A DNA stretch of 20,232 nt from a virus. The notes under the pieces are model-generated. The model was not told where the DNA came from and ran no database searches. It saw only the letters and a list, made by a program, of their open reading frames with translations. Both the position numbers and the translations under genes were made by a program. Every line of letters starts with the position of its first letter. Position 1 is the stretch's first letter. Location of the stretch: positions 1-20,232 of IMG/VR virus record IMGVR_UViG_3300030107_002164; one strand, 5' to 3'. Shown in pieces: positions 366 through 19,273 of this stretch.

Positions 366-1079
366 TTAAGAGGGTTCGGCTTCCTGAAAAACCTGATTGG
401 TTTTTTCTTCTCTTTTTTCAGCTTCTAATTTGTATAATTTCTCTAACCACGCTCTTTTAACATGGTCTTTTGGTCGCCCTGCTGGTAATCGTTCTAATCC
501 AACTGCTTCAGCTCTTTTTCTCAGGCTATACCTGTCGTTTTTATCTGCTTTATATTGAGGTGAGCGTTCACGTTTCATGCGAGTTAATGTTTTGTGTAAT
601 TTCTTCTTTTCTGCTCTTGCTCTGACTATAGGTTTATTATTTCTTTCATCTCTTGGGGGCAATTCAGTTTGAGATAAAGTCATCGGCTCAGTTTCACCGT
701 TCATTTCTTCATACTCTGCATCATCAGCTTCCATTTCTTTAGCAAACAGCTCATACGGAGATTTAACTTCTATTTGGAACTTCTTAGTAAACTTTCCATG
801 ACGTTCTGCTAAGTATCGTGCAGCTTGTACATTACCTGCTTGTGCTTCTCTTATCATCGCAACATCAACTAATAATAAATCACGAGTAATGTTCTTAGCA
901 AATATATCTTCGGCTTTCTCGTAAAATAATTTATCTTGTTTTATTCTTTTTAGAGCATTGGGAGTAATGTTTAATTGTTCACACAATTCTCTATCAGTTA
1001 TTGCAGGGTTCATCCCAACTAATTGAGATGCTTTGTTTCTTATTAAGTTAAAATTGCTTTTACCGACTAAATTTGGCAT
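366..1079 (-). CDS. putative terminase small subunit
   Basis: This 237-aa protein probably recognises phage DNA for packaging with the large terminase. The N-terminus (about residues 26-50, from ITDRELCEQLNITPNALKRI) looks like a helix-turn-helix. It is followed by a helical segment with NVQAARYLAERHGKF (83-97), a pattern seen in small terminases just after the DNA-binding domain. The middle is acidic and low-complexity (about 115-135). The C-terminal half is highly charged and basic, with AGRPKDHVKRAWLEKLYKLE. The ATG is immediately next to the stop of the MuF-like gene upstream, so the genes are probably co-translated. It is the last gene of the leftward packaging module, whereas small terminase usually precedes large terminase. 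The role is inferred from the helix-turn-helix and context; another DNA-binding phage protein is possible. Confidence 0.6.
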   Translation of the reverse strand: MPNLVGKSNFNLIRNKASQLVGMNPAITDRELCEQLNITPNALKRIKQDKLFYEKAEDIFAKNITRDLLLVDVAMIREAQAGNVQAARYLAERHGKFTKKFQIEVKSPYELFAKEMEADDAEYEEMNGETEPMTLSQTELPPRDERNNKPIVRARAEKKKLHKTLTRMKRERSPQYKADKNDRYSLRKRAEAVGLERLPAGRPKDHVKRAWLEKLYKLEAEKREEKTNQVFQEAEPS

Positions 1080-1610
1080 TTACACCTCTACTACCGAATC
1101 AATGTTATTTGTGGGGTCTAAGGTACAATAGCAACGGAAATTACACCTACTCCATCCTGAAGCTGGTAATCCTAAAGCAACCCAATCTGTAAATGGTCTT
1201 ACTTCACCACTTCTTTCTTCACAATCTACACAATGCTTTACACCACGAGCAACGACCCAACGATAATCTGCATCCCCACCTAAGACTTGGTTATAAACAG
1301 CCATCATACCTATTCTACTACCTTCTCTTATTCCGTATCTAATTACATCCGTCGTTGAATTATACAAAGCAGTAAACGCACCTGTTTTATTGTTATATTG
1401 AGTTTTAATACGTTCTTTTATTTGTGGGTCGGTTAATCCCTCGTATTGTAACCTTTCGATTGATGAGGTAAGTTGTGCAGTAAATACTGTAACGTCTAAA
1501 AATGCTAATGTAGTTAAAAAGTCAAAGAAATCAAAATCATCTTCTTTTACATCTTCTTCATCTAAGAAATTACTAATGTATAAATCTAAATCTTTTATAT
1601 TATCAGCCAT
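1080..1610 (-). CDS. short MuF-like head morphogenesis protein
   Basis: This 176-aa protein is probably a minor head protein linked to the portal. The C-terminal third carries CVDC at 127-130, then GEVRPF, ALGLPASGW and a second cysteine cluster (C156, C160, C162). This matches the C-terminal pattern of phage Mu gpF-type proteins: Cys-x2-Cys, then a LP..G motif, then a C.C pair, probably a metal-binding knuckle. The N-terminus is acidic (DEEDVKEDDFDFFD, 17-30), followed by helices and the segment YGIREGSRIGMMAVYNQV. MuF proteins are usually longer, so this is a compact version or one missing the N-terminal portal-binding region. It shares one base (TAATG) with the upstream gene and abuts the small terminase gene downstream. 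Confidence 0.65.
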   Translation of the reverse strand: MADNIKDLDLYISNFLDEEDVKEDDFDFFDFLTTLAFLDVTVFTAQLTSSIERLQYEGLTDPQIKERIKTQYNNKTGAFTALYNSTTDVIRYGIREGSRIGMMAVYNQVLGGDADYRWVVARGVKHCVDCEERSGEVRPFTDWVALGLPASGWSRCNFRCYCTLDPTNNIDSVVEV

Positions 1611-2176
1611 TAAATAAACATTCCTCCAGTAGCTTTTCTAAATGCTTCTTTCATACGACTTTTAAACATTTTTAATCCTGATTCACCTGTTTTTTCATCA
1701 TATTGTAGCCAAAATCTTATTGGAACGCTCTTACCAACCAATCCAAATCTTTCTGTAAAATTGTTTTTAGCAATCTTATAAGCAATTCCATCTTTATTAT
1801 CTTGGTCTTTTATAAAATTATCTAATTCTTCTTGACCTTTTGCAGTAACAACGCTTTTTCCAAGATGATGTTTTCCATATTCATTGAATCTTAATGTTCT
1901 GCTTTTAGGAAATGCTTTTATAGATTTTAATAATCTATCGGTATGTCTTAATGGCTTTGTAGAGCTTGTTTTTTTAAACTTAGCGTTAGGAGAAAGTCCT
2001 TTTTCTCTTGCAATCTTAGTAAATTCGCCAATTTTATCAAAATTTCCTTCCTTAATTGCTTTCTTAGAGCCTATCTCAAATGCTACTGCACTATTAGCTA
2101 AGAAATCTTTAATAATTTTGGGCATTTCTTTAGCCAACTTCCCTGCATCATACGTTATGTCAAATTCAACTTTCAT
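1610..2176 (-). CDS. putative neck / tail-completion protein (gp10 or virion-morphogenesis type)
   Basis: This 188-aa basic protein lies between the portal-side genes and the MuF-like gene. It contains PLRHTDRLLKSIKAF (about 75-89), resembling the 'PL..TG.L..SI' signature of HK97 gp10-like and Mu-type virion morphogenesis proteins. Towards the end it has VPIRFWLQYD, similar to the 'R.F.G' stretch of that group, and a basic C-terminal helix (MFKSRMKEAFRKATGG). Such proteins join head to tail or complete the tail end. The start ATG overlaps the end of the upstream 74-aa gene by 4 bases, and the stop overlaps the next start. Assignment rests on one motif plus context; it could be an unrelated minor virion protein. 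Confidence 0.5.
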   Translation of the reverse strand: MKVEFDITYDAGKLAKEMPKIIKDFLANSAVAFEIGSKKAIKEGNFDKIGEFTKIAREKGLSPNAKFKKTSSTKPLRHTDRLLKSIKAFPKSRTLRFNEYGKHHLGKSVVTAKGQEELDNFIKDQDNKDGIAYKIAKNNFTERFGLVGKSVPIRFWLQYDEKTGESGLKMFKSRMKEAFRKATGGMFI

Positions 2177-2397
2177 TTGATTTGTAAATTCCTTTTGGCA
2201 AAGTCCATACCAAGCTTCTTCGCTTTAAGTATTCGTTTGAAACTACGGCTAAGATTGTTTTCGACAAAGTCTTGTCCGAATTTTTCAGGATTCTTGAGTA
2301 TCTCGTCAATGGTCGTGTCCAAATCTCTGATTTCAAACTCATTAAGCTGTTTCTGTTCTTTGACGAAGTCTTTGAATAACCGATTGCCCTTGCTCAT
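2173..2397 (-). CDS. 74-aa hypothetical protein, packaging module
   Basis: This small, charged, helical protein has no recognised family. It starts inside the 3' end of the portal gene, a 56-base overlap in a different frame. On its coding strand AAGGA lies 6 nt upstream of the ATG, which supports this start. It ends with a basic stretch (KAKKLGMDFAKRNLQIK) and overlaps the next gene by 4 bases. Position between portal and neck genes suggests a small head or packaging accessory protein, but nothing in the sequence proves a role. Confidence 0.6.
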   Translation of the reverse strand: MSKGNRLFKDFVKEQKQLNEFEIRDLDTTIDEILKNPEKFGQDFVENNLSRSFKRILKAKKLGMDFAKRNLQIK

Positions 2398-3676
2398 TCA
2401 TTTTCCTTTTCATATCATTATTAGCAACGACATTTTCATCAATAATTTGCTTTGCCTGTTCATCTGTAAGGTCGTTGTTGTAATTTTGTAATAATTTGGT
2501 ATGGCTGATTAGATTATTATCTAACATAAATTGATTAAACATAATCTCATCCTGAGCTGACTTTGGATATTCAGGTTCAGCAAAATCTAATCCTAAATCT
2601 TCAGGTAGTGAAACGTTGTTTGCTTTAAGTATAGCTTTTTCTACTTCATAGATTTCATGTTCATACATTTGCCATAAATCAACATAATCTTCGTAATCTT
2701 CCTTGCGTTCTAAATCTCGAATTACAAGAGCTATTCCACTTGGTACTTCTCCACCTGAACGATTGAAATCAATATGTAAATGATTATTTGCAGCCGATGT
2801 TTCCATTATTGTTTTAATAATCTCAATTAATCCTCTCATATCGCCTTTTGGAGATACAATGTCAAAGTTCGCACCTTCAGGAAGTATTAATGTTTCATCC
2901 GTTCCTGCTCTGACTACGTTAGAATCTGCGTAAACACCTGTAACTACTGGTTGTCCAAAAGCTTGAAATCGACCACCGATACAAAGCTCAGTAAATAAAA
3001 TGTTTACTGCTTCATTAGCCTGAACAATATCAGAAGCTCCTGCAACAAAGTGAGAATCAATTTGTGGTTCTCTATGAATAAATGATACAGGTATCATTCC
3101 ATAATTATGCTCTACCTCACTAAGTATTCTACCACTTCCTTCGTATTTAATCATTCTTGTATCATCGAGATACATATATGTCTGTTCTTGGTTGCTTGAT
3201 ATATCATCAACCAAATTATCTATTGGGTAAGCAATAGCTATAGGATTTAAAGGGTCGTCATCTGACATAAATGGATGATAAAAATAAATAGGATGATAAT
3301 CCATTTGTTTTTTTACAGGATTATAAGTAATTCTACACGCAACTGTTCCTAATAGCTTGGCTATACGTTCAATATGCTTTAATTTTATGTTTTTAAAGCG
3401 AGTTAAGCTCGTATATTGGTCGTTTACATTACGAACTGCACCTGTTCTGTAAATACGAGCCATTTTATTGATGAATCGGTGTGTAAAATTAATAAATAAT
3501 GGTGGAACTTCCTTGAAGGCATCAATCTTAAAACGGTTAGCAATATAGCCTTCCATATTTTCACCTTCATAATAATCCAACATTTTATTTATCCACTTTT
3601 GTCGTCTTTTATGGACATCTAACTTTTGGTTTTGAATTGATTCGTTAATCAATTCTTTAGCTATTGAGTATATCAT
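2342..3676 (-). CDS. portal protein
   Basis: This 444-aa protein would form the dodecameric ring at the capsid vertex, through which DNA enters and to which the tail attaches. Length and order (directly after the large terminase) fit a portal. Visible features are a helical N-terminus with WINKMLDYYEGE (29-40), the segment VPPLFINFTHRFINKMARIYRT, a beta-rich middle (YHPIYFYHPFMSDDD) and a later HLHIDFNRSGGEVPSGIAL segment. That last segment resembles the 'sG.a......l' stretch before the long stem helix of SPP1-gp6-like portals. The C-terminal tail is Asn/Gln/Arg-rich. The start overlaps the terminase stop as ATGA, which indicates translational coupling. Family placement is from pattern and position, not alignment. 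Confidence 0.85.
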   Translation of the reverse strand: MIYSIAKELINESIQNQKLDVHKRRQKWINKMLDYYEGENMEGYIANRFKIDAFKEVPPLFINFTHRFINKMARIYRTGAVRNVNDQYTSLTRFKNIKLKHIERIAKLLGTVACRITYNPVKKQMDYHPIYFYHPFMSDDDPLNPIAIAYPIDNLVDDISSNQEQTYMYLDDTRMIKYEGSGRILSEVEHNYGMIPVSFIHREPQIDSHFVAGASDIVQANEAVNILFTELCIGGRFQAFGQPVVTGVYADSNVVRAGTDETLILPEGANFDIVSPKGDMRGLIEIIKTIMETSAANNHLHIDFNRSGGEVPSGIALVIRDLERKEDYEDYVDLWQMYEHEIYEVEKAILKANNVSLPEDLGLDFAEPEYPKSAQDEIMFNQFMLDNNLISHTKLLQNYNNDLTDEQAKQIIDENVVANNDMKRKMNEQGQSVIQRLRQRTETA

Positions 3677-4983
3677 CTACCTACCACTTTCATTTGCATA
3701 TTTTTAATTGGATAATGCGTTACAAAGAACATACGAAGTGAATCCATACTATGGTCTGACCGACCATCCTTCAATGGATTTTCCTTCAAAGGTCTATTGT
3801 CTTTATCTAATTCGTACCGATAGGCTTCTAAATCCTCTATTAATCCCTTACACTTCTTATCAATATGGATTCTATGAATACCATCGGCATTTTCAAAAAA
3901 CGACCTAACATGGTCTATTCCTGTGGAAATAGAACGAGATACTTTATCTCGTGGAAATCGACAATAAATGCCGAAGTTTCTCATCTGTGTAATATCACCC
4001 ATACCTGTTTGACTTTGTACTTGTCCACCAGCAGGGTCAGCATAATATCTTGTAACATGGTAAGGCTTTTGTAATATTCGCCTTGCCAATGATTCGGTCT
4101 TGATATTACGCTCATGGACTATTTCATCTATAATGTTGATATGTTCTAAACCATTCGTATCTAAGTAAGTTTGAAACCATAATACAGCAGGTTGTCTATA
4201 ACCAAAATCCATACTGCAATATGTTTGCCTACTTGGCTCATGTTTAAAATCTCCTACATGAGTATCTCTACGGAACGATTCGTAAACCACTCCACCCATA
4301 GATGTAAATGAAGCACCATACTCTTGTTGAAAAACTTGGGGAGATAAATTCCTGCGTATTTCTTGCAAATCTTTATCTTGATAACCTTCAGGAAACGCAT
4401 AATGGTTATCCCAAGATGGCGAGTTAAAGGAAAGCCATTCAGGGTCATCTCTTTGATACAATTCGTGTACCCAATTAAATCCTGATGGTGTTGTTATAAA
4501 AATAGCACGACTATCTTTTTGGTCTGATAAAGTTGGTCGTAAGTATTGTTCCCATACTCGCTTGTCAATGTATGCTGCTTCATCTAAGATTACTAATGAA
4601 TTAGATTCACCTAATAATGTAGCAGGATTATTAGCAGATTTTCCTTGTATTGAACTTCCCCAATCAAATTCTAAATACTGGTCACGCTCAGAGAATCTTC
4701 TTGGTTTCCATCCCATCTCGATTACTAACTTCTTATGAACTTCTCTAAATACTTTATTAGCCAATTCATAAGTTGGTGCAACCACCCAAACTCTCTTATT
4801 AGGTTGCGTAATCGTATAAACTGCTTCCATCGCTGATGATAAAGATTTACCAAACCTTCTACCACAAACTGCTACTGTGAATCTATGTTCTTTTTCGGGA
4901 AAATGTAATTTAAGCTGTCCACTATGAGGTTTATAACCAATCTGTTGAAACAGCTTTTCCTTAAATGTTTTCTGTTTATCCAC
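3673..4983 (-). CDS. terL: terminase large subunit (packaging ATPase-nuclease)
   Basis: This is the DNA-packaging motor, 436 aa from the GTG at 4983. ATPase features are an adenine-contact segment (YKPHSGQ), Walker A CGRRFGKS (40-47), Walker B LVILDE (130-135) and coupling motif TTP (164-166). The nuclease half has SMDFG (D259), IIDE (E287), YADPAGG (D316) and RSDHSMDS (D410, D414) as likely metal ligands. The frame stays open to a GTG at 5070, adding 29 residues, but that extension is encoded by the palindrome at 5026-5060 and is not terminase-like, so GTG 4983 is preferred. AAGGAG (5005-5010) lies 21 nt before it, unusually far, so the start is uncertain. It is the first gene of the leftward module. 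Confidence 0.93.
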   Translation of the reverse strand: MDKQKTFKEKLFQQIGYKPHSGQLKLHFPEKEHRFTVAVCGRRFGKSLSSAMEAVYTITQPNKRVWVVAPTYELANKVFREVHKKLVIEMGWKPRRFSERDQYLEFDWGSSIQGKSANNPATLLGESNSLVILDEAAYIDKRVWEQYLRPTLSDQKDSRAIFITTPSGFNWVHELYQRDDPEWLSFNSPSWDNHYAFPEGYQDKDLQEIRRNLSPQVFQQEYGASFTSMGGVVYESFRRDTHVGDFKHEPSRQTYCSMDFGYRQPAVLWFQTYLDTNGLEHINIIDEIVHERNIKTESLARRILQKPYHVTRYYADPAGGQVQSQTGMGDITQMRNFGIYCRFPRDKVSRSISTGIDHVRSFFENADGIHRIHIDKKCKGLIEDLEAYRYELDKDNRPLKENPLKDGRSDHSMDSLRMFFVTHYPIKNMQMKVVGR

Positions 4984-5025
4984 GAATAATCTTGTGCAAG
5001 TCCACTCCTTTAATTTAATATATCC

Positions 5026-5060
5026 TATGTGTATTCCACAAGATATTGTGGTTACACATA
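5026..5060. promoter_or_regulatory. 35-bp near-perfect palindrome in the divergent control region
   Basis: Left arm TATGTGTA (5026-5033), TT, CCACAA (5036-5041); loop GATA; right arm TTGTGG (5046-5051), T, TACACATA (5053-5060). The arms match over 14 positions, with one asymmetric TT/T bulge. The element lies between the leftward terminase and the rightward scaffold gene, so it could be an operator for a dimeric regulator controlling both directions, or a hairpin in a leader RNA. CATAAT (5057-5062) could be a rightward -10 box and TATATT (5022-5017, reverse strand) a leftward one, but no good -35 boxes were seen. Confidence 0.55.
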
Positions 5061-5090
5061 ATTCAAACACAACATATAGTAGGAGGACAG

Positions 5091-6805: not shown

Positions 6806-6984
6806 TGGATTTATCTAAAAAAATACGAAACGGTAGTGTTCAAAAATTAAATGGTTCAATGCTCGGAATAAATAAAGTTGGTAAAGGTAGTTTTTATAGA
6901 ATAAAAACATCTGACGAGCAATACAAAGAAAATTACAATAAAATCTTTAGAAAGAATAAATGCTCACAACATTCGATGAAATAG
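6805..6984 (+). CDS. 59-aa hypothetical protein
   Basis: This small basic protein begins MDLSKKIRNGSVQKLNGSML. The start overlaps the previous stop (TAATG), and the end overlaps the endolysin gene by 25 bases in another frame. Tight coupling to both neighbours and lack of any better reading in this interval support it as real. It has no recognised domain, signal peptide or membrane segment. An accessory role in lysis is possible only from position. Confidence 0.5.
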   Translation: MDLSKKIRNGSVQKLNGSMLGINKVGKGSFYRIKTSDEQYKENYNKIFRKNKCSQHSMK

Positions 6985-7439
6985 TTGAAAAAGTCCTTGA
7001 ACACGAAGGTGGGTATGTAGATGACGCCACAGATTCAGGTGGAGAAACTAATTTTGGAATTAGTAAACGAGCATACCCTGATGAAGATATTAAAGGTTTA
7101 ACAGTTGAAAGAGCTAAAGAACTCTATAAAAGAGATTATTGGGATAGGTTTCGTGTATCTGAGCTTCCTTCTCGTATTCGTCATATCTATGTCGATATGT
7201 GCATTAATATGGGTGGTAGAAGGGCAACTAAGATACTTCAAGAAGCTTGTAACAGTAAAAACTCCTACAAGATAGATATAGATGGTGGTATTGGTAAAGA
7301 TACTATTAAAGCTTCAAGTAATCTTGAAGAATTTAGACTTAGAGCGTATAGAGTAATGTTTTACGCTGAACTTGTAATTAAAAAACCTGACCAAATGAAA
7401 TTTTGGGTAGGTTGGTTTAGAAGGAGTTGCGAGGTATGA
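6960..7439 (+). CDS. endolysin, GH108-type N-acetylmuramidase
   Basis: This 159-aa enzyme should cleave the glycan strand of host peptidoglycan at lysis. The N-terminal motif LEHEGGYVDD contains the catalytic Glu of GH108 (E16 in HEGGY), followed by SGGETNFGIS (26-35), the hallmark glycine-rich segment. YKRDYWDRF (56-64) and YVDMCINMG (77-85) continue the family pattern. From about residue 106 a small peptidoglycan-binding part is visible (DGGIGKDTI), ending in KFWVGWFRRS, the usual closing motif. There is no signal peptide, so a holin-like protein must give access to the wall. The length is normal for the family. It overlaps the next gene as ATGA. Confidence 0.92.
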   Translation: MLTTFDEIVEKVLEHEGGYVDDATDSGGETNFGISKRAYPDEDIKGLTVERAKELYKRDYWDRFRVSELPSRIRHIYVDMCINMGGRRATKILQEACNSKNSYKIDIDGGIGKDTIKASSNLEEFRLRAYRVMFYAELVIKKPDQMKFWVGWFRRSCEV

Positions 7440-7663: not shown

Positions 7664-7965
7664 TGGATGTTTCACAACTACTTACAGAACATGGACTGGC
7701 TGTTGTTATCATCTTTTGTTTGTTCGGTGCTATCAGTTGGTTTGCCAAGTGGTTTTTTAATCATTATACTGCAAATTTATCAACACAATTTACAGAATTG
7801 CTCAGAGAAATCGCAGAAGTCAAAACAGAAGTATTAGACAGCAATTCTAAATTGTATTCTATACATGAAAAACTTATATCTAATCAGCGTGAAATACAGG
7901 AAGATGTAAATGCTATTGAAAGCTCTTTAGATACTTTATTAAAATTTATTAAGGCAGATAAATAA
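7663..7965 (+). CDS. second membrane-anchored coiled-coil protein, holin-like
   Basis: This 100-aa protein has the same design as its upstream neighbour: a membrane helix near the N-terminus (about 11-30, GLAVVIIFCLFGAISWFAKW), then a long charged coiled coil to the end. A Trp/Phe/Lys boundary (WFAKWFFNHY) marks the membrane interface. The ATG overlaps the previous stop as TAATG. Two similar-topology proteins in tandem after an endolysin suggest a holin pair, holin plus antiholin, or a spanin-like pair. No lipobox is present, so a classical outer spanin is unlikely. Confidence 0.65.
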   Translation: MDVSQLLTEHGLAVVIIFCLFGAISWFAKWFFNHYTANLSTQFTELLREIAEVKTEVLDSNSKLYSIHEKLISNQREIQEDVNAIESSLDTLLKFIKADK

Positions 7966-7966
7966 T

Positions 7967-8503
7967 GTGGCTGAACTTGGTGGACTTAACAAGGATGGTG
8001 GCATTAGCTTTGAGAGAAAGCGTAATTTCGATAAGAAAGAAAAAAAGCCTGAGATGTTCTCTCGAAAACCTCCTGACAGAAGTAAGGAAGTTGATGAAGA
8101 ACTTGAAAAACCTATTGTTGAAGATAGACCTCTTAGTGCTGAAGAATTATCGAAGAATGAGCGACTTAATGCAAAATTACGCAAGGCGAAAGGGATTCAA
8201 GCAGGTGGATTTGCTTTTAACGGTGGAAGCATTATCGCTGCTCTTTTCTATATTGATAGCTTGTTGCTTGACCCTGCTACCGTTGATAATCTTAACGCTA
8301 TTAATAAATTAATTGGTGCAGATATAGATTTTGAAAATATGATTGCTATTATACAAGGTTATAAAGCTCAGATAATAGGTTTTGCTATATCATCTCAAAC
8401 TATGATAATGGGTTACAAAGATACTGTTCAAAAAATGAAGGAAAGAGGTAATGAATCTTTCTATGAAGTTTTTAATCAAGAATTGGAGAAAACAGGTATA
8501 TAA
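7967..8503 (+). CDS. 178-aa hypothetical protein with hydrophobic C-terminal half
   Basis: The N-terminal 75 residues are strongly charged and probably disordered (FERKRNFDKKEKKPEMFSRK). The rest contains hydrophobic stretches such as GGFAFNGGSIIAALFYIDSL (about 79-98) and an IIQGYKAQIIGFAISSQTMI stretch (about 129-148). These could be one or two membrane helices or amphipathic helices. The start is GTG at 7967; an ATG two bases earlier opens another frame (115 codons) inside this gene. This frame is preferred because it is longer and its product looks protein-like. A role with the adjacent lysis-type genes is inferred only from position. Confidence 0.65.
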   Translation: MAELGGLNKDGGISFERKRNFDKKEKKPEMFSRKPPDRSKEVDEELEKPIVEDRPLSAEELSKNERLNAKLRKAKGIQAGGFAFNGGSIIAALFYIDSLLLDPATVDNLNAINKLIGADIDFENMIAIIQGYKAQIIGFAISSQTMIMGYKDTVQKMKERGNESFYEVFNQELEKTGI

Positions 8504-12248: not shown

Positions 12249-13769
12249 ATGCCAAATTTCAATGCTAATTTAAATATTAGAACAGGTCGGGGAGATGCTT
12301 TAACTGCATCAAAAAATGGTAGCTATGTAGATGTTTTTAATATTAGACAAACTGTTAATAATACAAATGCAAGTAACACCTTATTAACAGGTGCTAAGTC
12401 TGTAGGTGTGGCTTCTATTAGCGATGCTAAATCTTTAATAATTAAAAATAATGGTGAAGTTCCTGCTGAGATTGTAATTGCAACTAATACACATACAGAT
12501 GCTACTCCTGATACTACAGGAGCTGCAGCATATCAAAAATATATTTTATCTGCTAATGACTTTATGTATTTGCCAAATATTAGACAAATGTATGGTTCAA
12601 GTGCAAATTCAAGTGCAAGTGCTTATACTTTAGACAGCCAAGTACCTGATGCTAATATGTATGTTGCTTTAAATAACGCTGCTTCAGGTGATGCTCAATT
12701 AGTAGCTGAAGCTATTGATGGCTCTGAAACAGAAATAGATGTTGATGAGGGTGGATATTTTTTTGTAGGTGATTTAATTAGAGTCGAAAATGAAATAATG
12801 GAAGTTACTGCAATATCAACTAATACTTTAACTGTAATACGTGGCACACATGGAAGTAGTGCTGCATCTCATTCTGATAATACTGCTATTAGATTACCAT
12901 TTTTTAATAATTATGTAGATTTTGATAAATATTCAACTGCTCAGACAGATAGTGCAGGTAAGTACAAGGCTACTAATTTAATAGGTTTATGTAGAAATAC
13001 AGATGGTAGTGGTAATCCTGAATCAATGGGCTGTAATGGTCTTTCAATTAAATTTTATTCACAAGGATTTCAGGAAATTGGGTTATCAGGAATTTCATCA
13101 TCTACTTCATCAGGATTAGCTGTATCTACAGAATATAAATTTAATATAACAGTTGATGGAGGTTCTACATTTTCAAATCTTACATTCATTACCGATTCAA
13201 GTGACGTTAGTTTTGGTGGAACAAACGGAATCATTAATAAAATACAAGATGCTTTAGACACTCAATTTTACACAGCAGGTTCTAATTTATTCGAAAAGAA
13301 AGTAAGAGTTAGTATTGTTAATGGAGATGTAAGATTTACATCAGGTTCACATTTATCTACATCTGCTATTTTACTTGCAGCACCTACATCGGGAACTACT
13401 CCATTTGGAGTTGGTCGCTTACCTGCTATAGCTAACGTAGAAGCTCCTGTTGCTTCTAAGTTACCACAAGACACTATTATTGATAGTAGAACAGGGTTAG
13501 AAACTAAAAATATCAATCAAATGGCTTATGATGATGGACATGGAGTAATAAAAGGTGTTTGTGATGGTACAATTTCTTATAATTCGGGTGCTATAACTTT
13601 ACAAAATGCACCAGCTAATGCTAATTTCGTTGTTAGTGCAAACTATGGTTCATCCCAAAGTGGTGGTAATAGATTCGGTGCAGCTATGGGGAATTGCATA
13701 ACTTCAATATCAGGTCGTTCTTGTAATTCAAAAATTGATACAACTATTGAAATAATAGGACTAAGATAA
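12249..13769 (+). CDS. virion structural protein with a shared 'TVIRG' domain
   Basis: This 506-aa Ser/Ala/Asn-rich protein has no charged enzyme-like motifs. Residues about 154-216 form a distinct module: IDVDEGGYFFVGDLIRVENE, then EVTAISTNTLTVIRGTHG and SAASH. The same module occurs in the next gene. The N-terminal 130 residues and C-terminal half are beta-type and lack a recognisable family. A pattern 'SSSTSSGLAVSTEYKFNITV' suggests an adhesion or decoration surface. TAAGGGA lies just before the ATG. Position between fibre genes and the head-tail connector leaves head decoration, collar or fibre-base roles open. Confidence 0.6.
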   Translation: MPNFNANLNIRTGRGDALTASKNGSYVDVFNIRQTVNNTNASNTLLTGAKSVGVASISDAKSLIIKNNGEVPAEIVIATNTHTDATPDTTGAAAYQKYILSANDFMYLPNIRQMYGSSANSSASAYTLDSQVPDANMYVALNNAASGDAQLVAEAIDGSETEIDVDEGGYFFVGDLIRVENEIMEVTAISTNTLTVIRGTHGSSAASHSDNTAIRLPFFNNYVDFDKYSTAQTDSAGKYKATNLIGLCRNTDGSGNPESMGCNGLSIKFYSQGFQEIGLSGISSSTSSGLAVSTEYKFNITVDGGSTFSNLTFITDSSDVSFGGTNGIINKIQDALDTQFYTAGSNLFEKKVRVSIVNGDVRFTSGSHLSTSAILLAAPTSGTTPFGVGRLPAIANVEAPVASKLPQDTIIDSRTGLETKNINQMAYDDGHGVIKGVCDGTISYNSGAITLQNAPANANFVVSANYGSSQSGGNRFGAAMGNCITSISGRSCNSKIDTTIEIIGLR

Positions 13770-13770
13770 T

Positions 13771-15030
13771 ATGGCTACCAATTTACCAACTTATGCAACA
13801 GTAAATGATTTAAGAGATGTTTATCCTAATATAAATAAATACGATACTAAACAACCTTTATATAATTGGGTAGAGATTGGGGTTTCAGGTAGTTATAAAC
13901 TATACCAAGCTAATAATTCAGGATTGACTAATGTATTATTTAGAGATGGTGAAGATTTAACAGGTTTAGGAAAAAAAGAAGTTTATACAGATTCTAATGT
14001 AGATACAAGTGAGGCACTTGACAGCGAAGAAACAGATGTAGATGTTGCAGATGGTTCTGCCTTTTCTGTTGGAAACATTATTAAAATTGATAGCGAAATA
14101 ATGTTAATTACTAAAATCACTTCAAACACATTAACTGTAATTCGTGGATTTGCAGGTACATCCGTTGCAAGTCACGTTAATCCTTCAAGTGTTTTTATTG
14201 GTTTAAAATTTTCTATTAACAATCAATGGTTCTATAGTACCGAAGATGATTGTGTTTTACTATATACTTTAAGCAATAGTGACCCAAACGATTCTTTATT
14301 AGAATCAGGTGAGGATTGGTTAGCACATAAAAATGATTTATTATACAAGGCATCAAGATATTTTGATAGCTATGTTGATGCTTCGCTACCTCAAAGGATG
14401 CACAAGAATAGTGAAGGAGAATATCCTTATCTTGTAATTAGAACTACTGCACAGATATGTGCTTATTTTTTAATTTCAGCACACGACCCTGAAAACGAAG
14501 ATGCTTTAAGATTAAAAGAAGAATATGAAGATATCCTTGACAAATTGGTCAATGGTCAGTTAAAACTTGATTACGAAAAGTCATCTGATTCAGCTAAAGG
14601 TATTTTAACGGAGTTATTTTCTGCAAGTTCAACTACCTTGAAACCTTTAGATATAATTGGCACATACACAGGCAGTAATTATGATAAAATATTAATAAAA
14701 ATTACAACTGGTGGAGGTGTTTCTCAGGCAAAATTTACAAGTTGGGTTGCAAGTGATGATAATCTTGGAGCAGGATTGGCATTTGCAAGTACAAGCACTA
14801 TATATGTACAAGATGAACTTATAAATGGACAATATCAAAATTTCGCATCAGGGTTGTATGTTAGGTTTGGCTGTTCAACTACCGTACCTGCAGGTTCAGG
14901 AGGAGCTACAACAGGATATGTTACAGGAACTACAACAGCAGGAGATGCTTATCAAGTAGAAGTATTTCCAAGAGGTTCAGAAATAGATGATGCTCGTGGA
15001 ATTAAATCGGCACGATTAACGAGAGCTTAA
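13771..15030 (+). CDS. composite head-tail connector protein
   Basis: This 419-aa protein is probably a head completion or adaptor protein with an inserted module. The N-terminus LPTYATVNDLRDVYPNI looks like the start of connector proteins of the DUF1320 / Mu gp36 kind. Residues about 81-143 are the 'TVIRG...SH' module also found in the gene upstream. The helical segment 190-266 (LLYKASRYFDSYVDASLPQR, then PYLVIRTTAQICAYFLISAH and LDKLVNGQLKLD) fits the adaptor family's 'A...ID.yL..R' and 'L..i..G...L' patterns. A beta-rich C-terminal domain follows (about 280-419). The gene sits just before the tail terminator, as expected. The split-domain reading is inferred from motif order. Confidence 0.6.
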   Translation: MATNLPTYATVNDLRDVYPNINKYDTKQPLYNWVEIGVSGSYKLYQANNSGLTNVLFRDGEDLTGLGKKEVYTDSNVDTSEALDSEETDVDVADGSAFSVGNIIKIDSEIMLITKITSNTLTVIRGFAGTSVASHVNPSSVFIGLKFSINNQWFYSTEDDCVLLYTLSNSDPNDSLLESGEDWLAHKNDLLYKASRYFDSYVDASLPQRMHKNSEGEYPYLVIRTTAQICAYFLISAHDPENEDALRLKEEYEDILDKLVNGQLKLDYEKSSDSAKGILTELFSASSTTLKPLDIIGTYTGSNYDKILIKITTGGGVSQAKFTSWVASDDNLGAGLAFASTSTIYVQDELINGQYQNFASGLYVRFGCSTTVPAGSGGATTGYVTGTTTAGDAYQVEVFPRGSEIDDARGIKSARLTRA

Positions 15031-15467: not shown

Positions 15468-15649
15468 AGATAAAATTAAGAAAAATAAACACTAACCTAC
15501 CAAACTGTTGGAAACAATGTGGGGTTAGTTTGAAAGATTGGAAAAATTTTAAGTCGGGCAAAGAAATTGAAGTCAATGAGTTACCTGACTTTATTAAGCA
15601 TTTAGTAGAAATATCTACTGAGATAAAAAAAGTAAAAGGAGATAAATAA
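15464..15649 (+). CDS. 61-aa hypothetical protein, tail module
   Basis: This small basic protein contains INTNLPNCWKQCGVSLKDWK and then KSGKEIEVNELPDFIKHLVE. It lies between tail terminator and tail tube genes, overlapping both (ATGA and TAATG). The conserved place suggests a minor tail or assembly factor. No domain or membrane segment is seen, and no family is recognised. Confidence 0.55.
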   Translation: MKIKLRKINTNLPNCWKQCGVSLKDWKNFKSGKEIEVNELPDFIKHLVEISTEIKKVKGDK

Positions 15650-16650
15650 TGGCAACAGTAGCACACGCATTTTCGCCAAAAGAGTTTAAATGCTTTATTA
15701 TATCTGATGCAACTAACGCTGGGAGTTCAGGGATTCATGCCAGTAATATGTTACAATTAGATGTTGATTCAGTATCATACCCATCACTTAATGTTAATCA
15801 GGTGTTAGATGTTAGAAGTGGTGTTGGTAATACTTTTAAGGATGAAGATTTTTTTCAGGACAATAAGATGAGAGTAGTAGAATTAAGCCTGTCAGGTACT
15901 TTGCATGATGATGTTGGACATAGACTATTAATAGCTAACATTTGTGGAGCAGCACAAGCTGATGATACTAATCAGACTATTGCAAGTGGTCATAAAATAG
16001 TAGCACAAAAGTATGGTGCAGCAGTAACAAATAACGCTTCTTCGCTAACTGTTGTAATACAACCTTCTGATGTTTCAAATCAAACAGGATTAGAATTTGC
16101 AGGAATGGTTGTCACTAATTTAAGCATATCAGCAGATACTGGAACTGAAGGTGGTAGATATAAATTTTCAGCAACTTTACAATCGGGGAAAACTCCTGAC
16201 TTAGCTTCCACAGCAGCAGCAGGTAGTACTGTTTATGCTAATACTACAGGAACAACTTTAGCTTCTGCGAGTGGAGTAAAAGTTTATGCTCTTGATGCTG
16301 CTTTAAATAGTTTTACTACTACAATAGATTATCCTGCTGTTTTTTCAGGTATTACAAGTACAGGATATGATGTAGTAAGTAGGGGTGCAGAATGTTCAGT
16401 AACACATGATTGTCAAGTTAAATATGATGGAAATACTAAAGGTTTAGTTAATTCTTTTGATACACAAACATCTGCAAACGCTGAAAACACTTTTATTATT
16501 ACTAATAACGGAAAGTTTGGCATAGATACAGCTAATGGTGTATTAACAAATGTTGCTTATTCAGAAGGTGATATAATGATGCTTGATGTTTCGATTAAAG
16601 CTGTCGATGATGGAACTGACGAATTACTTATAATAGATTTATCTGATTAA
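15649..16650 (+). CDS. major tail tube protein
   Basis: This 333-aa protein probably polymerises into the tail tube. Evidence is its position between terminator and chaperones, and a beta-rich sequence. HAFSPKEFKCFIISDA opens the protein, VVELSLSGTLHDDVGHRL (about 76-93) gives a typical helix-strand turn, and EFAGMVVTNLSISADTGTEG (about 149-168) resembles the 'l..lsis...g.~~~~v~~~g' strand pair of many tube proteins. The second half (VSRGAECSVTHDCQVKYDG) repeats that strand style, suggesting a two-domain tube subunit. It is larger than the common 150-250 residues. AGGAG lies 9 nt before the ATG. Confidence 0.75.
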   Translation: MATVAHAFSPKEFKCFIISDATNAGSSGIHASNMLQLDVDSVSYPSLNVNQVLDVRSGVGNTFKDEDFFQDNKMRVVELSLSGTLHDDVGHRLLIANICGAAQADDTNQTIASGHKIVAQKYGAAVTNNASSLTVVIQPSDVSNQTGLEFAGMVVTNLSISADTGTEGGRYKFSATLQSGKTPDLASTAAAGSTVYANTTGTTLASASGVKVYALDAALNSFTTTIDYPAVFSGITSTGYDVVSRGAECSVTHDCQVKYDGNTKGLVNSFDTQTSANAENTFIITNNGKFGIDTANGVLTNVAYSEGDIMMLDVSIKAVDDGTDELLIIDLSD

Positions 16651-16651
16651 T

Positions 16652-16912
16652 ATGATAAAAACCCTTAGCACAAAAAAAGAAGTGACATTAAAAGAGATGT
16701 CAATAGATGACATGGATTTTTGTAATGACTTACAACACATTTGTCAAGAACCTGATGGTGGTATTTCTATTTATGGATTAAATAAATCTAATACTGCATG
16801 GATTAGACGAGGTGTTGAAGAAAGTGATGATAAATTCATTAAAGCACTTACGGAAACTGAAAAGATAGAGTTAGTTGCCTTAGTTAAAGAACATAATACT
16901 TTGGGGGAGTAG
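16652..16912 (+). CDS. tail assembly chaperone, short frame (gpG-like)
   Basis: This 86-aa soluble protein lies between tail tube and tape measure, the standard site of the lambda G-like chaperone that coats the tape measure during tail assembly. The N-terminus KKEVTLKEMSIDDMDF is typical of such proteins. The gene ends in a slippery T-TTG-GGG heptamer (16900-16906) just before TAG. A -1 slip there would fuse the first 85 residues to the following frame, giving a 231-aa product. The unslipped 86-aa form should be the major product. The start is one base after the tube stop codon. Confidence 0.75.
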   Translation: MIKTLSTKKEVTLKEMSIDDMDFCNDLQHICQEPDGGISIYGLNKSNTAWIRRGVEESDDKFIKALTETEKIELVALVKEHNTLGE

Positions 16913-16954
16913 CAAGTGTTGAATTGGCGATGAATGTTCATTTGTCGTCAATTT
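16900..16954 (+). promoter_or_regulatory. -1 frameshift signal: slippery heptamer plus stem-loop
   Basis: TTTGGGG (16900-16906) fits X-XXY-YYZ in the zero frame (T TTG GGG). The -1 frame is open from 16897 onward, with a stop at 16894-16896, so the slip must occur in a 16-base interval containing the heptamer. A downstream stem pairs 16921-16935 with 16940-16954: 15 uninterrupted pairs, four of them G-U, with loop GTTC. The spacer is 14 nt, longer than the usual 5-9. The stem also buries the ATG at 16930. Confidence 0.7.
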
Positions 16955-17346
16955 GTAATGGTTGTAGTTATCACGAGTTTCCCTACAAGGCAACTCCACC
17001 AATTTCAGGTCAAGGGGAAAAGTTATTTAAATCTAAGGATGATGTCAATGTTATCATAGGACAGCTAATCGATGAAGCAGAAGAATGGAATAAAAAGGGA
17101 AAGAATTTTGATGTCGCTCTTAGCGTTACCAAACAGCTTCCCTTTTTTTGTTGTTCAAATATAATTTTAAACAAAGAAAGTCAAAAAGCAATACAAAGAT
17201 ATGTATATTGTAATGAAACAGGAACACAAGCATATAATGGTTCGTATGGTGAGCAACCTTATAAATGGTTGCAACAATACTTTATTCTCAAACAAGCATT
17301 TGCTCAAAAAGAAAAGGCACAGATAGATGGCAGAAGGAAAGATTAG
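16924..17346 (+). CDS. tail assembly chaperone, frameshifted extension (gpGT-like)
   Basis: This frame (coding from 16906 when reached by slippage) encodes the T-like part of a G-T fusion. It has NVHLSSICNGCSYHEF, a Cys/His-containing start, then an alpha-helical region (VNVIIGQLIDEAEEWNKKGK) and ends in basic Q/K-rich sequence. No good ribosome-binding site precedes TTG 16924 or ATG 16930, and the ATG is inside the predicted stem, so separate initiation is unlikely. In lambda-type phages the T part binds the tail tube protein while G binds the tape measure. It overlaps the tape measure gene by 20 bases. The alternative is an independent small tail protein. Confidence 0.65.
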   Translation: MAMNVHLSSICNGCSYHEFPYKATPPISGQGEKLFKSKDDVNVIIGQLIDEAEEWNKKGKNFDVALSVTKQLPFFCCSNIILNKESQKAIQRYVYCNETGTQAYNGSYGEQPYKWLQQYFILKQAFAQKEKAQIDGRRKD

Positions 17347-19273
17347 AGTAAAGTTTGATGCTCAAGGTGACAAAGGCTTAATTGAAGCAATACGCAGACT
17401 TAATAAAGAAACTAAAAAATTAGGCGTTGAAACCAAGAAGTATAAAAGAAATGTAAAAGAAGCAGAAAAAGAACAAGATAAACAAAGGAAAACTACTCGT
17501 AATTTAGCAGGTACTTTTTCTACTTTACGTTCTAAAATGCTACTTAGTGCATTTGCTGTAAAGCAATTTGCTGACCCATTTATTAATTTAGCTCGTAAAT
17601 CTATTATGGTTGCTGCAAACTTTGAAGCTTTAGAAACAAGATTAGTTTCTATGACAGGTTCTACAAGAACAGCATCAGAAATGATGAAAGAATTTAGAGA
17701 TATTGCTGCAACTACTCCTTTTGCAGTTCAAGATGTTGTTGAAGCTGGTGTGCAATTAAGAGCTTTTGGTGTTGATGCACAAGAAATGATTAAACCTGTT
17801 ACTGACCTTGCTGCATTTATGGGAACAACTGCAACAGAAGCTGCAAGTGCATTAGGTCGTGCTTTTGCAGGTGGTGCAGGTGCAGCAGATATACTTAGAG
17901 AGCGTGGTATTTTACAGCTAATTAAAGATACACAGGGTATTACAGATTTATCTAAGACAACATTACCTGAGTTTAGAGAAGCATTAGAAAAAGCTTTAAT
18001 TGACCCAGTAGCAGGTATAGCAGGTGCTACTGACAAATTATCTGAAACAACTATTGGTGCATTTTCTAATATGCAGGATGCTTTAGATAATTTTCTTGCT
18101 GAATCTGCTGAAATAAGTGGTTTAAAAGATTCTATAACAGAGTTAGCAGAGAGTACTACTGAATTACTTAATTCTACTACATCTGAAAAAATTGAAAGAT
18201 TTTCTAATTTAGCTAAGATTACTGTAAAACTTGCTCTTGGAATGGCAACAGGTGGCTCAACATTAGCAGTAGGGTTTAAAGATTTAAGAAAAAATATAGA
18301 TGATTTTTTTAATACTCCTATTACAGGAGCAACAAAAGAACAAGAAGAAGCTCTTAAAAATCAACAAAAACAAATAGCAGTATATTCTAATAGAGTAATT
18401 ACTAACTATAAGCAACAAGAAACAGCAGTAAAAGATGTAAATAAAGCTATAGATGATTTATTTGAATCTGATGAAGCCTTAATCCCTATGTATATAACAA
18501 GAGAAGAACTTCTTAAAGCTACTACAGAGAGAATAAAAGAATTAGATATAGAAATGTTAAGAAATGTTGCATCTTCTACAATGTTATCTGAAGTTTTTGG
18601 TGAACTATCTGCAAAAGATAGAGAATTAAATTCTGAATTATTATTAACGTCTGTTGCAATAAATACAATAGGTGAATCGACTAAGCATAATATACCACTA
18701 ATAGAACAATTAGGAGCTTCTTTAAGTACTAATGCGACAATTACCAAAGAAGGTGTTGATGAAATGAGTAGATATATACAAAGCTCTATTTCAATGGGAA
18801 GGAGTATTAATCATGTAGGTAAAGCAGCATCTACTGCTGCTCAACATTTTATTGTTAGTAAAGTACAAGAAGGTGTAGCTTCTTATATAGCTGATTTTTT
18901 AAAAACAACTCCGTTGCCAGTATTTATATCTGCACCATTAGCAGTTGCAGGTGGAGCTGCGTTTGGAAGTGCGATGCAGCAAACTATTGATAGCGTTGCT
19001 AAATTTAAAACAGGTGGATTAGTTGGTGGTAAACGACACTCACAGGGTGGAACTATAATTGAAGCAGAACGAGGTGAATTTGTTATGAGCCGAAATGCTG
19101 TGTCTGCTATTGGTGTTGAGAATTTAAATAAAATGAATGAAGGACAAGGTGGTACTAATAATATAAGTATAAATATAAATGGTGGTATGATAAGTCCTGA
19201 TTTCGTAGAAAACGAATTAGCAGAATCTATTAGAGAAGCAGTAAGGCGAGGTGCAGACTTTGGCATTTCTTAA
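17327..19273 (+). CDS. tape measure protein
   Basis: This 648-aa protein sets tail length and later helps DNA entry. It starts with a basic coiled coil (about 20-58). A domain at about 95-200 follows, containing MTGSTRTASEMMKEF, FAVQDVVEAGVQLRAFGV and ALGRAFAGGAGAADILRERG, the usual N-terminal block of siphovirus tape measures. Long helices fill 200-500. A hydrophobic stretch at about 529-548 (PLPVFISAPLAVAGGAAFGS) may insert in the host membrane. The C-terminus has the common FKTGGLVGGKRHSQGG and AERGEFVMSRNAV motifs. At roughly 0.15 nm per residue the tail would be near 100 nm, an inference. It begins inside the chaperone gene and overlaps the next gene. Confidence 0.93.
   Translation: MAEGKIRVKFDAQGDKGLIEAIRRLNKETKKLGVETKKYKRNVKEAEKEQDKQRKTTRNLAGTFSTLRSKMLLSAFAVKQFADPFINLARKSIMVAANFEALETRLVSMTGSTRTASEMMKEFRDIAATTPFAVQDVVEAGVQLRAFGVDAQEMIKPVTDLAAFMGTTATEAASALGRAFAGGAGAADILRERGILQLIKDTQGITDLSKTTLPEFREALEKALIDPVAGIAGATDKLSETTIGAFSNMQDALDNFLAESAEISGLKDSITELAESTTELLNSTTSEKIERFSNLAKITVKLALGMATGGSTLAVGFKDLRKNIDDFFNTPITGATKEQEEALKNQQKQIAVYSNRVITNYKQQETAVKDVNKAIDDLFESDEALIPMYITREELLKATTERIKELDIEMLRNVASSTMLSEVFGELSAKDRELNSELLLTSVAINTIGESTKHNIPLIEQLGASLSTNATITKEGVDEMSRYIQSSISMGRSINHVGKAASTAAQHFIVSKVQEGVASYIADFLKTTPLPVFISAPLAVAGGAAFGSAMQQTIDSVAKFKTGGLVGGKRHSQGGTIIEAERGEFVMSRNAVSAIGVENLNKMNEGQGGTNNISININGGMISPDFVENELAESIREAVRRGADFGIS

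Follow-up and report, generated by a model that had tools for sequence, protein, structure and literature searches.

A GGGGGAG slip site as the probable point of −1 frameshifting in a putative tail assembly chaperone gene of an uncultivated, AT-rich phage

Introduction

The production of short and long tail assembly chaperones from one gene by slippage is an arrangement already known from other phages. In phage lambda, the slip site of the gpG/gpGT pair is G GGA AAG. In lambda, a locus flanked by the tail tube and tape measure genes yields a short chaperone and, less often, a −1 fusion (PMC5009743), an arrangement resembling that of the locus described here; however, the two slip sites differ and no common sequence family is detectable. 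Phage Mu uses a −2 shift (PMC5009743), unlike the −1 shift proposed here, and its gp41/FS-gp41 gave a weak fold match to the short protein of our locus (E 0.019, probability 0.99).

A different slip site has been described in other phages. All of the approximately one thousand "fivetwo" motifs detected by PRFect in SEA-PHAGES frameshift genes have the sequence GGGGGAA, and the authors of that study suggested that a G-U pair allows the Glu tRNA to re-pair with GGA (PMC10885494). The same slip site has been assigned in corynephage phi16 (PMC5506516). The site described here shares with this motif the five G residues followed by two purines, the −1 shift and the location in chaperone genes, but it is found in AT-rich marine phages rather than in high-GC SEA-PHAGES genomes, and its A-site codon may be GAG as well as GAA. 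Judged by its sequence, G_GGG_GAR is the PRFect "fivetwo" (GGGGGAA) site known from the tail chaperones of actinophages. Not all such genes carry the motif, since the chaperone gene of Arthrobacter phage Wollypog has no GGGGGA in its short ORF. Our search of the literature found no paper pairing GGGGGAG with ribosomal frameshifting.

The gp24/gp25 genes of mycobacteriophage D29 (PF17388, GP24_25) lie, as the reading frames studied here appear to do, between the genes for the major tail protein and the tape measure. The annotated joined chaperone of D29 reads CAA CTG GGG GAA GCC at the junction, with CTG_GGG_GAA in the same frame as in our locus, and a stem is likewise present from offset 11 after the site. 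The peptide around the junction in D29 and related actinophage-type chaperones (xGE / GG[RS]xALxxL) is also similar. The two loci differ in GC content (about 63% for the D29 stretch and 33% for the DNA analysed here) and in the site itself, which is GGGGGAA in D29 and GGGGGAG, with a stop directly after it, in our sequence. The profiles of the short forms are similar, whereas the −1 domain has no homology by profile to that of D29 or to other actinophage T domains.

Organization of the junction

The DNA analysed, hereafter referred to as the window, is the 20,232-base IMG/VR virus record IMGVR_UViG_3300030107_002164 (positions 1 to 20,232). The reading frames at the junction are as follows:

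15649–16650, plus strand: ORF of 333 aa directly upstream of the 86-aa ORF, placed by position only
16652–16912, plus strand: zero-frame ORF of 86 aa, candidate short (G-like) tail assembly chaperone, from fold and profile matches
16897–17346, plus strand: −1 reading frame; the T-like domain of the predicted 231-aa fusion consists of the residues from 16909 on
17327–19273, plus strand: tape measure protein of 648 aa (PF20155 TMP_3, E 1.8e-11; phrog_973, E 1.1e-10)

The zero frame at 16898–16912 reads ACT TTG GGG GAG TAG. The −1 frame has a TAA at 16894, is open at 16897–17343 and stops at 17344–17346, and a slip on the G run joins the two frames into a product of 86 + 145 = 231 aa. The 86-aa ORF, the opening of the −1 frame at 16897 and the length of the fusion, all reported in the initial annotation, were confirmed from the sequence. 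The overlapping ORFs (16652–16912 and 16897–17346) sit between the genes for the putative tail tube protein, so designated from position only, and the tape measure protein, and the tape measure ORF begins (17327) before the −1 frame has ended. The 333-aa ORF had no Pfam or PHROG match and is, from its position only, probably the major tail protein.

Several other features were observed in the window. The terminase large subunit and adjoining ORFs (366–5070) are on the minus strand, opposite to the capsid and tail genes, and a gene for a glycosyl hydrolase 108 endolysin with a peptidoglycan-binding domain (6960–7439; PF05838, E 6.4e-24) sits between the capsid and tail genes. The ORFs at 7965–8312 (115 aa) and 7967–8503 (178 aa) lie in different frames and overlap nearly completely, and one of them is probably spurious. 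The adjacent ORFs at 12249–13769 and 13771–15030 both match phrog_7578 briefly (residues 151–215 and 81–142, respectively), which suggests that they share a domain.

Relatives of the junction

Single-sequence and profile searches yielded 81 further IMG/VR loci at the same junction. With the window, the set comprises 82 loci and 63 distinct junction sequences, and the kinship among these junctions means that counts over the 63 do not represent that many separate events. Identity to the window ranges from 93 to 32% for the −1 proteins and from 99 to 21% for the short proteins; the closest diverged relatives are the loci L012, L013 and L016 (81%, 70% and 64% identity to the window, respectively). 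The relatives of the window family are all uncultivated contigs, and no homologues were matched in cultured phage records or in bacterial genomes. Both frames are kept in 82 of 82 loci (63 distinct junctions), all with GGGGGA[A/G], and the short ORF stops 7 to 37 nt past the first G of this sequence. The comparison of the 82 loci and 63 junctions strongly supports the initial proposal that a −1 frameshift fuses two tail assembly chaperone frames; by all comparative tests, this is almost certainly a real frameshift, ordinary in kind.

The slip site

Two overlapping sequences and the stop codon were considered at the junction:

16900–16906, plus strand: T-TTG-GGG heptamer, the slip site of the initial annotation; present in the window, not conserved
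16903–16909, plus strand: G_GGG_GAG (GGGGGAR), predicted slip site; invariant in the relatives, with the same site in D29
16910–16912, plus strand: TAG at which the short product ends, immediately following the predicted slip site

GGGGGA followed by A or G was found in all 63 distinct junctions (GGGGGAA in 47, GGGGGAG in 16), and the zero-frame reading was G_GGG_GAR in every case. The window itself has the GGGGGAG form, a one-base variant of GGGGGAA abutting the TAG, and GGGGGA occurs only once in the window, at the junction. The glycine codon is GGG in 63/63 junctions, as against a background of 11% in the same genes, and the codon preceding it is always NNG, compared with 13% of Leu and 9% of Val codons ending in G elsewhere. 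Codon choice is far from the background, indicating a constraint at the nucleotide level. The triplet before the G run is of 14 kinds, and the codon at this position may be TTG, GTG, CTG, GAG, AAG, ATG or GCG. Re-pairing of the upstream tRNA is therefore not the common mechanism. The canonical X XXY YYZ pattern does not describe G_GGG_GAR, in which the second triplet is GGA and not YYY.

The initial annotation had placed the slip site one codon (three bases) upstream of GGGGGAG, with tandem slippage on T-TTG-GGG. As read from the sequence, this heptamer does lie in the zero frame, with one codon between it and the TAG at 16910. It conforms formally to X XXY YYZ in the right frame, the fusion produced would be equally long, and the heptamer might add to slippage in the clade of the window alone. 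However, the canonical pattern occurs at this position in only 5 of the 63 distinct junctions, and close relatives have TGTGGGG (L012 and L013) or GTTGGGG (L016) and keep both frames, a loss that the initial annotation had itself named as counting against its proposal. A slip at T-TTG-GGG would also leave the invariant third-base G of the GGG codon unexplained, and TTTGGGG, which occurs three times on the plus strand of the window, is unremarkable alone. Since the triplet before the G run varies across the relatives, we consider the heptamer to be a local coincidence; it was rejected as the slip site, and tandem slippage on it is very unlikely.

A pattern scan of IMG/VR with GGGGGAAGNNNNGCCCTC (slip site plus CCCTC) matched at least 80 loci. 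Among the matches listed, at least 49 had the layout of a short ORF and a −1 ORF, whereas the other two frame assignments on the same strand accounted for 0 and 1 and the opposite strand for 7. Among the matches listed, most are higher-GC, D29-like chaperones (xGE / GGSxALAxLID), and several are of a marine type (xGE / GGREALQLELN).

The downstream hairpin

The predicted slip site is followed by a potential RNA structure:

16912–16965, plus strand: downstream hairpin, with pairing of 16912–16915/16962–16965, 16917–16920/16957–16960 and 16921–16935/16940–16954, loop GTTC

The 15-bp stem of the initial annotation (16921–16935/16940–16954, loop GTTC) is complete, with 15/15 pairs formed, including 4 G-U; it extends further, to at least 19 bp, and the relatives keep a stem at this place. 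The hairpin at 16912–16965 has a folding energy of −19.1 kcal/mol (z = −2.96; 2/200 shuffles as good), and only 2% of versions obtained by synonymous recoding of the −1 frame fold as well (p = 0.02). The spacer between the end of GGGGGAG (16909) and the start of the contiguous stem (16917) is 7 nt in the window and approximately 5 nt in a clade of 30 sequences, both within the usual range of 5–9 nt between frameshift site and structure (PMC5009743). The spacer of 14 nt previously given depended on the wrong slip site.

Comparison with synonymous recodings revealed stronger folding after the site across the family (mean z −2.66; p<0.05 in 78%). In the clade of 30 sequences, the stem is AGCCUCCA/UGGAGGCU or GCCCUCCA/UGGAGGGU, with 97.4% of cells paired and a G-C/C-G swap in 11 sequences; none of 500 shuffles scored as high, and slid controls gave 40–64%. 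A second clade, of 22 sequences, has an almost invariant core (CCCUC/GAGGG) one base out of register with this stem. The hairpin of the window clade is 88% paired over 4 distinct sequences; one pair (16924–16951) is compensated, and the covariation score of the hairpin was reached by shuffles, four distinct sequences being too few for separation. Thus, the exact hairpin is limited to the small clade of the window, and to this extent the pairing is specific, as initially suggested; however, a stem is present at the same place across the family and the spacer is an ordinary one. The stem is, as initially suggested, a likely stimulator. An upstream Shine-Dalgarno stimulator, which is an optional feature of −1 signals, was not detected by comparison with synonymous recodings (p = 1.0 in the window; p<0.05 in 5% of relatives), and no such signal was conserved among the relatives.

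In most relatives, the CCUCC/CCCUC of the 5′ arm of the stem could also pair with the GGGGG of the slip site, such that two mutually exclusive folds are possible. The pairing of the G run with CCUCC could form in the clade of 30 sequences, and RNAalifold on alignment A6 also gives it (A5/A6 columns 1–18; 16903–16920 in the window). The columns are invariant, so covariation lends it no support, and the window has no CCUCC; this pairing was therefore not retained.

The five-G run present in every relative would also be compatible with access to the −1 frame by transcriptional slippage rather than by the ribosome. However, the runs involved in transcriptional slippage are usually longer and composed of A or T (PMC3711429), and slippage of this kind would not call for a folded downstream stem, making this explanation extremely unlikely.

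Expression of the −1 frame

The window contains an ATG close to the beginning of the −1 frame:

16930–16932, plus strand: ATG in the −1 reading frame, located within the stem and not conserved as a start

The first 20 codons of the −1 frame contain no ATG in 55 of the 63 distinct junctions and none of ATG, GTG or TTG in 45, and the −1 ORFs of L012 and L013 have none of these codons before codon 122. The ATG at 16930 is replaced with ATA in L012 and L013 and with ATT in L016. Moreover, conservation of the −1 protein (60 proteins) sets in at the slip site, ahead of any start codon, with the sequence GG[VR]xSVxLA or GGREALQLE. The lack of a conserved start, together with conservation from the slip site onwards, fits expression of the −1 frame by fusion. 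Independent starts at 16924 or 16930 were rejected, as there are relatives without start codons, and the suggestion that the stem blocks initiation at the ATG at 16930 could not be maintained given ATA or ATT in its place and the startless frames of L012 and L013. The synthesis of two separate proteins, with the second frame starting at the TTG at 16924 or the ATG at 16930 of the window, the GGGGGAG, which resembles a ribosome binding site, serving as Shine-Dalgarno sequence and the stem regulating access, is in the light of these relatives scarcely credible.

The two protein domains

AlphaFold2 models were obtained with pLDDT values of 90.9 for the 86-aa protein and 87.8 for the −1 domain. 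In the Foldseek viral library, the best named matches to the 86-aa protein were tail assembly chaperones, with weak E-values (0.02–0.3 at probability 0.8–1.0, and up to 1 over all matches to named chaperones), among them Mu FS-gp41, Bacillus phage Gemini and halovirus ChaoS9 (probability 0.97–0.99); there was no fold match in the PDB. With hhalign, the profile of the 86-aa protein aligned end-to-end with D29/PF17388-type chaperones (E 2.2e-5, probability 76%). This similarity is profile-profile only, as no member of alignment A8 reaches the gathering score of PF17388 (GP24_25), and the Pfam and PHROG searches gave no convincing family for either half. Gene order, the weak fold matches and this one profile match suggest that the 86-aa protein is a tail assembly chaperone.

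The −1 domain had fold matches with E <= 0.001 to three unnamed viral models of 89–116 aa, shorter than the −1 frame, which would fit ORF calls starting at an internal codon. An invariant pair of cysteines, C18 and C21 (CxxC), and an invariant C84 were also observed in this domain (16954–17154 in the window), and it is possible that these residues of the unnamed T-like domain form a metal site.

Proposed mechanism and significance

Taken together, the comparisons very probably point to one tail chaperone gene with a −1 slip at GGGGGAG and the hairpin as its likely stimulator. In the mechanism that we infer, from the occurrence and efficiency of slippage to the functions of the stem and of each protein, most ribosomes would stop at the TAG at 16910, giving the short chaperone of 86 aa. 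A minority, whose P and A sites are occupied by GGG and GAG, respectively, would slip back one base at 16903–16909 and continue to 17343, giving the 231-aa fusion, the extra ~145 residues of which would form a second domain. The hairpin located about 7 nt downstream would be the likely stimulator of this slippage. If lambda gpG/gpGT is taken as a model, the short form may coat the tape measure protein, and recruitment of the major tail protein may fall to the fusion. Either both tRNAs could re-pair, the Glu tRNA doing so on GGA with a G-U at the middle position (...TLGE-VASV), or the Gly tRNA in the P site could slip by itself (...TLGG-VASV), which poses the question of whether residue 86 of the fusion is E or G.

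We lean towards the view that G_GGG_GAR represents a distinct class of −1 slip site, conserved widely, which dispenses with canonical A-site re-pairing (by a single P-site tRNA-Gly slip, or a tandem slip with a middle G-U) and is linked to a stem. This class would extend over phage chaperone genes of ~34% to 72% GC, so it would not be a by-product of GC content in actinophages. The GGGGGAA motif was first inferred from high-GC and highly redundant actinophage genomes, in which G runs are common. Its invariance in an AT-rich family in which GGG is an uncommon glycine codon and the −1 frame is often startless constitutes independent evidence of a true slip site, and provides annotators with a rule by which tail chaperones so far lacking annotation can be located in marine phages.
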